From: Prochlorococcus sp. MIT 1307
GTDB taxonomy: Bacteria; Cyanobacteriota; Cyanobacteriia; PCC-6307; Cyanobiaceae
Length of the DNA: 64,000 nt
NCBI RefSeq assembly: GCF_034092395.1
Contig: NZ_CP139301.1
Coordinates: forward strand, 186,001-250,000
Direction of reading: 5' to 3'
Positions within the stretch are counted from its first letter, which is position 1, and every line of letters begins with the position of its first letter. A program made the position numbers and the translations under genes. The notes beneath the pieces were generated by a model that saw nothing but the letters and a program-made list of their open reading frames with translations, had not been told where the DNA came from and searched no databases. This document shows positions 7,506 through 24,421 of the stretch, piece after piece.

Positions 7506-7970
7506 TTAAGGGCAAAACTTCTTCAGTGCAGCAATTACCTTCTTGGGTCTGTCTTCCATATAATAAGCCTCTACTTCACGTTCTCTCTTTATATTCCCAA
7601 TACTTGTAGACCCTTTTATTGCTCTTGCTTTATACCATGGGTGTGATTTTCTTTTAGTATTAATGACACCTAGAAGCTTTGAATTATTACAGTCCTGAGC
7701 AACGTGAGTTGCTTCATGTCTAAGCGCTTTTCTAATGGAGATTGCTGTAGCATTATTATTATCACGACCCACTTTGGGTAGGTAAAAACCATTAGTCTCT
7801 TTTATATTTTGAGTGCAAATAACCACTGCACGTTGCCGCTTTTTGGTAAACCCAACATACTTTTTTCCCATTAGGCATAAAGGAGAATTTTCTTCCACTG
7901 AAAAATTTGCTTTGTAGATAAGTTCAAGGATTTCTTTTTCTTTTGCAGTTAAAAATAAAAGGAATTCCAT
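7506..7970 (-). CDS. Small HExxH metalloprotease-like protein of unknown function
   Basis: 154 residues, ATG at 7970, no signal peptide. The centre reads RKALRHEATHVAQDC: a complete zinc-binding HExxH motif (HEATH). A glutamate-rich segment about 40 residues later (REVEAYYMEDRP) could give the third ligand, as in gluzincin-type peptidases. The C-terminus is basic. The stop of umuC lies 36 bases upstream on the same strand, so it may be read from the SOS-controlled umuDC transcript; I see no clear promoter in the gap. Peptidase activity is inferred only from the motif. Confidence 0.75.
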   Translation of the reverse strand: MEFLLFLTAKEKEILELIYKANFSVEENSPLCLMGKKYVGFTKKRQRAVVICTQNIKETNGFYLPKVGRDNNNATAISIRKALRHEATHVAQDCNNSKLLGVINTKRKSHPWYKARAIKGSTSIGNIKREREVEAYYMEDRPKKVIAALKKFCP

Positions 7971-8006: not shown

Positions 8007-9281
8007 TTATGATTGAACAATCGGAAGTTGATTGATTCGTGTTGTCGTGTAGCAGCTTAATTGCTCACGGCGTATGTCCCAACTTTGATTGAGAACGCAT
8101 GCCGCCCATTTCACTGTGCCATCTCCATAGCGCTCGTTGAGCTTGTCGATTGTTTGCATTAGACGTTCACGTCTCTTTAGGCTTTCAGGCTTGTAATCCC
8201 TTAGAAGGTTTGGTTGTAGATGATCAGTGCTCTGAAGTTTTTTCATTATCACTCCAGCCTTGACTAGAAGGCAATAAGGCCGGAATATTTTCTCTGTCAA
8301 TGTCAATGCTTCTGCTAGAAGAACGGCCGTGTCGTTGCTTGGTGTGTTTAGTTGAGTTGTTGCGCTTTGCTGATAGAAGGATTCTGAAAAGGGACTTGTG
8401 CGTGTGAATACGGTGATAGTTCCTGCTCGTTGATTGTGCTTTCTTAGCTTTGCACTGGCGCGAATTATGTGGCTATTTATTGCGCGATGTAATTCTTCTA
8501 GGCTTGTTATCGGACGACTGAAACTTTTGCTTACGCAAGTTTGCTGTTTTGGTGGTGTTACTGTCCTGAGAGGTAGGCATACTTTCCCTTGTAATTCTTT
8601 TTGTAGTCTTATTCCTGTTACCCCGAACTTTGTATGTAGTTCGTTGCTAGGCATATCGCGTAGTTGCTGAGCTGTATTAATGCCTCGCATTCGACACCAA
8701 CGAGCGATTTGGGGTCCTATTCCCCAAACGTCTTCGATGTTAATAGTCTTGAGCCATGATGTTTGGTCCTTATTTATTTGTAGGTCAAAGACACCAGCAT
8801 GAGCTGATATGTTTTTTGCGAGGTAGTTAGCAATCTTGGCTTGGCTCTTGCTACCCCCGATACCGATAGAAATGGGTAATCCTAGGTTTTGATATATTAA
8901 TGCTCGTAGTTGACGAGACCAGGGACGTAAGTCGTAATCAGGTGGACGACTGATTTGAGCAAAGGCTTCATCAATGGAATAGATTTCTATGTGTTCACAA
9001 TGTTTTTTTAATAAACCCATTAGACGTTGACTCATATCACCGTATAAGGCGTAATTGGAGCTGCGTACGACTACACCGAGCTTTTTTAATTTATGTTGGA
9101 TCTTGAAGTATGGTTGGCCCATTGAAATGCCGAGTTTCCGCGCTTCTGAGCTGCGAGCCACGATGCAGCCATCGTTGTTAGATAGCACTACTACTGGGCG
9201 ACCAGAGAGCGATGGATCTATGTTTTGTTCACATGCGGCGTAGAAATTATTGCCATCGATTAGTGCTGTTGCTTGAGTCAT
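8007..9281 (-). CDS. umuC: DNA polymerase V catalytic subunit UmuC
   Basis: 424 residues. Y-family translesion polymerase that, with processed UmuD, copies past damaged bases during the SOS response. The N-terminal catalytic signature is present (ALIDGNNFYAACEQNIDPSL at residue 6, with the metal-binding Asp). YSIDEAF near residue 102 carries the second acidic pair, and thumb helix-hairpin-helix features follow (EDVWGIGPQIARWC near 184). The C-terminus matches UmuC rather than DinB. Its ATG overlaps the umuD stop by 4 bases (ATGA), so the two are translationally coupled. Confidence 0.96.
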   Translation of the reverse strand: MTQATALIDGNNFYAACEQNIDPSLSGRPVVVLSNNDGCIVARSSEARKLGISMGQPYFKIQHKLKKLGVVVRSSNYALYGDMSQRLMGLLKKHCEHIEIYSIDEAFAQISRPPDYDLRPWSRQLRALIYQNLGLPISIGIGGSKSQAKIANYLAKNISAHAGVFDLQINKDQTSWLKTINIEDVWGIGPQIARWCRMRGINTAQQLRDMPSNELHTKFGVTGIRLQKELQGKVCLPLRTVTPPKQQTCVSKSFSRPITSLEELHRAINSHIIRASAKLRKHNQRAGTITVFTRTSPFSESFYQQSATTQLNTPSNDTAVLLAEALTLTEKIFRPYCLLVKAGVIMKKLQSTDHLQPNLLRDYKPESLKRRERLMQTIDKLNERYGDGTVKWAACVLNQSWDIRREQLSCYTTTRINQLPIVQS

Positions 9282-9730
9282 TTTGATGATGTAATGCTTT
9301 TGAGATTGTGAATTGAATGCACTGCTACACCCCAGATCTGCACGTTTTCGTATTGCTGTAGGTCAATGGGTAGATAGTTGGGATGCTCTGCTTCTAGATA
9401 CAGCACTCCATTTTTGAGAACAAGTCGTTTCAGCGTGAAGGCGCCATCTAGTACAGCTATCACGATGTGACCGGGACGTGGGTTGAGGCTACGGTCTACA
9501 ACGAGGAGATCGCCGTTATGAATTCCGGCGCCAGTCATAGAGTCACCGCTTACACGAAGCAGAAAGGTGCTTTCGGGATGTTGAATTAGATACTCGTTGA
9601 GATCGATACCGATATCGATATAGTCGTCGGCAGGGGAAGGGAAGCCTGCTGAAACGCATTCATTCGCTAGCGGTAGGAATAATTTCGATTGCTTTGCTGG
9701 TAGGACGACTAGCACCTGCGAATCCTTCAC
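9278..9730 (-). CDS. umuD: UmuD, self-cleaving SOS mutagenesis subunit (S24/LexA-type peptidase)
   Basis: About 150 residues from GTG 9730. A TTG at 9739 (inside the inverted repeat arm) and a GTG at 9715 (which gives nearly the E. coli N-terminal length) are alternatives. The cleavage site SAGFPSP (Ala-Gly) is present. The catalytic Ser is in VSGDSM and the Lys in GAFTLKRL, so RecA-stimulated self-cleavage to UmuD' is expected. A LexA-type box lies just upstream. It is first gene of a umuD-umuC pair. Confidence 0.94.
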   Translation of the reverse strand: MKDSQVLVVLPAKQSKLFLPLANECVSAGFPSPADDYIDIGIDLNEYLIQHPESTFLLRVSGDSMTGAGIHNGDLLVVDRSLNPRPGHIVIAVLDGAFTLKRLVLKNGVLYLEAEHPNYLPIDLQQYENVQIWGVAVHSIHNLKSITSSK

Positions 9731-9792
9731 AAGAAGCAAGACAGAGAGCTCAATAGTACACCAATACTACTGAGCTCTCTGTCTTGCTTCTT
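9731..9792. repeat. Perfect 22-bp inverted repeat enclosing the SOS box
   Basis: The arm at 9731-9752 is the exact reverse complement of 9771-9792, with an 18-base loop (9753-9770). There are no mismatches over 22 pairs and pairing stops at both ends. It lies directly before umuD; the possible TTG start is inside the proximal arm. No T tract follows on either strand, so it is not a simple terminator. Confidence 0.97.
9754..9769 (-). promoter_or_regulatory. LexA-type SOS operator of umuDC
   Basis: The minus-strand 16-mer TAGTATTGGTGTACTA matches the palindromic cyanobacterial LexA box (TAGTAC-N3-TGTACTA type) with one main departure (GTAT for GTAC in the left half). It is centred about 31 bases before the GTG start and sits exactly in the loop of the inverted repeat. 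Known family biology (LexA represses umuDC) fits. Repression by LexA here is inferred. Confidence 0.8.
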
Positions 9793-9884: not shown

Positions 9885-10322
9885 TTAGCTCCGATGATAT
9901 GGGCCTCCGTGAATAATGGTGGTAGCTCGATAGATTTGCTCCACAAGTAATAAGCGAGCAATCTCATGGGGGAATGTCATAGGTGAGAGGCTTAAGCAAA
10001 GGTCGGCCATCTTTTTTATTTCAGGTGCGATACCGTTAGCTCCACCTATTACAAAAACAAGTCGCTTTGAACCTAATGCTTTTAGATACTCAGCAAAGGG
10101 AATAGAGGCGAGAGGCCTTCCTTCTTCCATCAGAATGATTAGTGTTTCATTGTTTTTTAGTTGAGTTTGTATTGCGTCAGCTTCTTTTTGTGGACTTGAG
10201 TCTTTTAATTCAGTAATTGTTAAGCCAGGTAGACGTTTTAGGTATAACTCAAGACCTTCACTTATCCATTTTTTGCGGATTTTTCCTATGGCAAGGATTC
10301 GATAACGCGACGGATTCAGCAT
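9885..10322 (-). CDS. rlmH: 23S rRNA (pseudouridine1915-N3)-methyltransferase RlmH
   Basis: 145 residues from ATG 10322 (an ATG at 10340 would add six residues). SPOUT-class methyltransferase acting on the 70S ribosome at helix 69. The diagnostic C-terminal knot is intact: [13 protein letters not shown] for SAM binding, [24 protein letters not shown] and the final GGPYHRS. It lies 28 bases downstream of an unknown gene on the same strand and 150 bases before umuD, whose expression has its own operator. Confidence 0.96.
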
Positions 10323-10350
10323 GAGTGAATCAGAGGTCAATGATTTGCAT

Positions 10351-24317: not shown

Positions 24318-24339
24318 TAATTAGTTCATAAAATGGTAA

Positions 24340-24386
24340 TTTATCAATAAAAGATCTAAGCAGTATTTAGACCTTTTATTGATAAA
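24340..24386 (-). terminator. Long hairpin downstream of glnA, likely terminator or 3' stabiliser
   Basis: TTTATCAATAAAAG (24340-24353) is perfectly complementary to CTTTTATTGATAAA (24373-24386). After one mismatch, TCTAA/TTAGA extends the stem inward, leaving a 7-base loop. It begins 36 bases after the glnA stop on the minus strand. The stem is AT-rich and the following T content is modest. Confidence 0.6.
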
Positions 24387-24421
24387 TGATTTTATTTAAA
24401 TATTGAAATATAGATTGTCAA

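Follow-up and report, generated by a model that had tools for sequence, protein, structure and literature searches.

LexA-operator palindromes suggest that replication slips repeatedly at the umuD switch in many Prochlorococcus lineages

Why should the predicted LexA operator of a mutagenesis gene lie at the centre of a long and nearly perfect inverted repeat? The question arises at umuD of Prochlorococcus sp. MIT 1307, in the window analysed here (the whole stretch of 64,000 nucleotides). The relevant features, with upstream and downstream given in the umuD sense, are as follows.

8007-9281, minus strand: umuC (Pfam domains IMS, IMS_C and DUF4113)
9278-9730, minus strand: umuD (Pfam domain Peptidase_S24), with a GTG start at 9730
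9731-9758, minus strand: downstream arm, perfect over 9731-9752, which would form the umuD 5' leader
9753-9758, minus strand: TACTAT, a possible -10 hexamer overlapping the operator
9754-9769, minus strand: LexA-type operator, TAGTATTGGTGTACTA, with one mismatch in its core to the published consensus (PMC3091678)
9765-9792, minus strand: upstream arm, perfect over 9771-9792
9885-10340, minus strand: rlmH (SPOUT_MTase), upstream and in the same direction, a possible source of read-through RNA

The original prediction of an exact 22-bp inverted repeat holds to the letter, as 9731-9752 is matched base for base by the reverse complement of 9771-9792. The LexA-type operator does lie at the centre of the palindrome, but not in the unpaired 18-nt loop in which it had been placed. 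Because the repeat grows inward to 28 nt (9731-9758 and 9765-9792) around a 6-nt centre, the operator belongs to the stem, and its own dyad makes the inner part. The sole mismatch in the 28-nt stem is a G·T pair (G·U in RNA). The upstream arm starts 92 nt past the rlmH stop codon, and the downstream arm stops immediately before a GTG (9730-9728) that is in frame with umuD. The TTG start candidate described earlier is indeed inside the arm (9737-9739); the GTG directly abuts the arm. After umuC, an ORF of 154 aa (window 7506-7970, minus strand) carries a metallopeptidase-like motif, HEATHVAQD, and has no Pfam match.

The box itself is of a familiar kind. The 14-mer core upstream of umuDC, AGTATTGGTGTACT, has one mismatch (C5->T) to the cyanobacterial LexA consensus given in PMC3091678, RGTACNNNDGTWCB, and the boxes reported there and in PMC2921402, umuCD included, are of the same type. 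The predicted operator would serve umuD as an ordinary operator, and through TACTAT it would also carry a promoter -10 element. A LexA box at umuD is on record, as is the template-switch mechanism considered below. By a term search, the extended palindromes, in contrast, are not described in the two LexA papers: 'inverted repeat' is absent from PMC3091678 and 'hairpin' from PMC2921402. Neither operator-centred palindromes nor their turnover were found described in the literature covered, which lies largely outside subscription journals.

In a piecewise scan of 864 kb of the 2.03-Mb genome, the umuD stem is the second-longest among 26 stems with a score of at least 14. Across the same 864 kb, a comparable stem centred no more than 75 nt upstream of the start occurs at 5/782 ORFs (a crude ORF call), umuD among them. 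The predicted RNA fold of the repeat is strong (folding z-score -6.9), and Rfam returned only matches far below cut-off (mir-583, mir-2058 and rliD), such as any perfect hairpin may give.

The umuD palindrome of the window is no one-off but belongs to a pattern seen across the clade. Among 128 distinct cyanobacterial umuD upstream regions, collected by searching the family and two genera for UmuD and by fetching further regions, 34 carry a DNA hairpin (z < -3.5) centred on a LexA-type box, and most of the others score near 0. Ungapped arms of length at least 14 are present in 32 of these 34 palindromic regions, reach up to 32 bp and form perfect stems in 23/32; past the arm ends, complementarity is 0.22, the chance level. 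Within the window's own genus, six of the seven genomes with umuD have a palindrome (28 bp in G000, the window's genome, 18 in G001, 15 in G002, 29 in G003, 24 in G004 and 18 in G007), all with differing arms. Compared with the genome rate of 5/782, this frequency gives p = 5e-13 when relatedness is ignored.

The arms are essentially unrelated in sequence. Over the 34 loci, arms pair with their own partners at 16.5 of 20 positions, as against 8.4 of 20 between arms of different taxa. Left arms are barely more similar than shuffled ones, and the closest pairs mostly share one genus. On a weakly resolved umuD tree, built on few columns, the palindrome state changes at least 19 times, with four of the changes forced by starred branches. 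The comparison of relatives proposed with the original prediction has an outcome that was not foreseen: from one relative to the next the arm sequences are random, yet an inverted repeat has been formed anew each time. Single-cell amplification does not account for the palindromes, since single-contig genomes (G000, G010, G084 and G231) carry them. No UmuD relatives were found in viral contigs.

Template switching is the best-supported cause of this pattern; this origin of the palindromes is well supported, whereas any function is hypothetical. The umuD palindromes were probably made by recurrent, short inverted template switches that start from the operator's own dyad or close to it. For the polymerase-level mechanism and the operator's seed role, we infer the following course. 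LexA binding would preserve the short dyad TAGTA...TACTA at umuD, and because binding keeps it there, the dyad would go on seeding short inverted template switches. As the DNA is replicated, the nascent strand would fold back at or near the dyad, and one flank would be copied onto the other, giving a long perfect palindrome that would decay by point mutation until the next rewrite. Such rewriting would have been repeated and independent in Prochlorococcus, in either direction, and the rlmH stop codon and the umuD start would in most cases set the outer bounds of the arms.

Before-and-after cases come from the high-light (HL) clade, in which a pattern that included the flanks was matched by 118 of 266 genomes. 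An 18-bp perfect palindrome is present in two of the 118 (G277 and G626), and HL relatives with an identical right flank have 3-6 mismatches in it. The 3-4 clustered left-flank differences that separate these two genomes from their nearest relatives abolish every mismatch and leave the partner arm unchanged, which is the mark that template-switch correction leaves on a quasipalindrome (PMC6357072, PMC8794818). The dyad involved lies slightly off the centre of the operator. These one-sided clustered changes represent the class; no close relative was found whose flanks are homologous to those of the window's own repeat and would allow such a comparison.

In other cases the template arm can be identified. 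At locus L070, the upstream arm reaches 24 nt into rlmH (PYHRL-stop), and because it lies inside the rlmH coding end, rlmH must have served as template and the umuD leader must be its copy. At L094, the umuD ATG falls within the arm, which extends as far as the rlmH stop, and together the two loci indicate copying in both directions. In genus g56, where copying may have run either way, the left and right flanks are both partly retained. Arms seldom intrude into rlmH or umuD: on the rlmH side the remaining ones end no more than 2 nt from the stop codon or beyond it, and on the umuD side most leave 0-13 nt to a possible start. Such abrupt ends, together with the perfect complementarity of most stems, are expected of template-switch products. 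Elsewhere in the window's genome, the purQ 3' end with its stop codon is repeated as a perfect inverted copy of 26 bp, which lies between the convergent purQ and an aldolase-like gene (L250:9527-9598; G000:C1:259527-259598). With the purQ end as its identifiable template, this repeat appears to be a product of the same process, and it is now perhaps a bidirectional terminator.

The template-switch mechanism is established in general (PMC8794818, PMC6357072). Quasipalindrome-associated template-switch mutation in bacteria (PMC6357072, PMC7202029) likewise perfects imperfect inverted repeats by arm-to-arm copying, and its changes are clustered and one-sided, as they are at umuD. Those systems are known from reporter hotspots, whereas the umuD case recurs naturally, in a whole clade, at a single regulatory site and is apparently anchored by a selected operator. 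Where template switching creates and maintains RNA hairpins (PMC8794818), a single event makes or repairs a perfect stem, as here; that work concerns RNA genes, whereas the present site is a LexA operator-promoter that serves a protein gene and whose arms turn over from species to species. The umuD site offers a natural, repeatedly sampled view of template-switch mutation remaking a promoter across a clade, and it suggests that a selected protein-binding dyad may persistently seed such mutations.

Dyads alone are insufficient, which counts against an account that invokes the seed only. None of the 20 lexA boxes in the same genomes, whose dyad is different and weaker, has arms. The exact core TAGTAY-N4-GTACTA occurs at 50 loci; extension of at least 12 bp is found at 7/9 umuD sites and at 3/41 other sites (Fisher test, 4e-5). 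Two of these three are probably terminators, as L221 lies after amt and has a T run, and L212 sits between convergent genes. TTGACA stands directly upstream of several other LexA-like boxes, where it would constrain the flank; no such -35 element was found at umuD in the window. If the palindromes are neutral, it still has to be explained why they pass over other LexA-like boxes, and the concentration at umuD, with six of seven genomes in one genus, could mean selection for a hairpin.

The strongest alternative to template switching as the whole explanation builds on such selection. In rlmH read-through RNA, the hairpin would sequester the umuD start or be cut as double-stranded RNA, so that the mutagenic polymerase would be made only from the LexA-controlled promoter. 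Pairing alone would be conserved, and template switching would supply new arms. To judge from TACTAT in the box, transcription would start inside the downstream arm, 6-8 nt downstream of the hexamer, and the SOS transcript, because it would contain the downstream arm alone, could not form the hairpin. If so, it is possible that the hairpin hides the umuD GTG in rlmH read-through RNA only. Fold-back inhibition of read-through translation, as described for IS10, would be alike, in that external read-through RNA alone folds and hides the start; the umuD locus differs in having no mobile element.

Several observations are consistent with this function. The gene directly upstream is rlmH, in the same direction, at 33 of the 34 palindromic loci, and palindromes occur at 33/104 loci with rlmH upstream against 1/24 without, but this association is confounded with clade, as the 24 belong mainly to one Synechococcus-like group. 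Palindromes are frequent in the window's own genus, the predicted RNA fold is strong, and downstream arms mostly stop just short of a possible start codon. Most rlmH-umuD pairs, however, lack a hairpin, including 116/118 of the matched HL genomes. Mismatches within the stems have no G·U excess (6 G·U and 5 A·C, small numbers) and do not point to selection at the RNA level. On balance, a selected hairpin is a tentative and rather unlikely explanation. Similarly doubtful is the broader proposal of a conserved structure without conserved sequence, in which selection holds the umuD operator in a hairpin while template switching rewrites the arms; if true, template-switch mutagenesis would itself build the structure that guards a mutagenesis gene. 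Whether leader hairpins are kept by selection or by mutation alone is testable at this mutagenic polymerase gene, and the locus cautions that a perfect hairpin beside an operator is by itself no proof of regulation.

It is very improbable that a DNA cruciform, extruded under negative supercoiling, removes the LexA operator and thereby tunes umuD. Long perfect arms with the operator at their centre in many species would suit such a switch, but extrusion would destroy the operator and the -10 element together, several palindromes have decayed (L034, L042 and L079) and most relatives have none. The earlier proposal that a cruciform alters LexA binding gained no support beyond this geometry. Even less credible is an intrinsic terminator of rlmH. 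The repeat does lie downstream of that gene, and a permissive terminator scan, content with 5 T in 8, accepts it, but the tail after the stem on the umuD strand, GCTTCTTGTG, has no proper T run, in line with the original prediction; moreover, the operator and umuD start lie inside the repeat, and most relatives are without the hairpin. The footprint of an inserted mobile element, or membership of a dispersed repeat family, would suit the resemblance of the arms to terminal repeats but is rejected, because the arm has no further copy anywhere else in the 2.03-Mb genome, the arms differ in every lineage and no element is present.

Other sites in the survey merit a brief description. The window contains a 21-bp AT-rich inverted repeat with one mismatch (24339-24387), which is flanked by a glutamine-synthetase-like gene and a small ORF and is probably a terminator. 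At L203:1481-1536 (G047 contig C12), an operator-like core with 20-bp perfect extensions lies directly before a DUF1651 small-protein gene and may be a second LexA-type site with like behaviour. LexA-like boxes also recur before small uncharacterised proteins (L207, L208, L210, L211, L198, L194 and L192). These include proteins of 77-91 aa, some of them DUF1651-like by eye, and one of 65 aa ('MAPSASP') that has an upstream TTGACA. Such placement suggests a set of unstudied, putatively SOS-linked small genes in Prochlorococcus.
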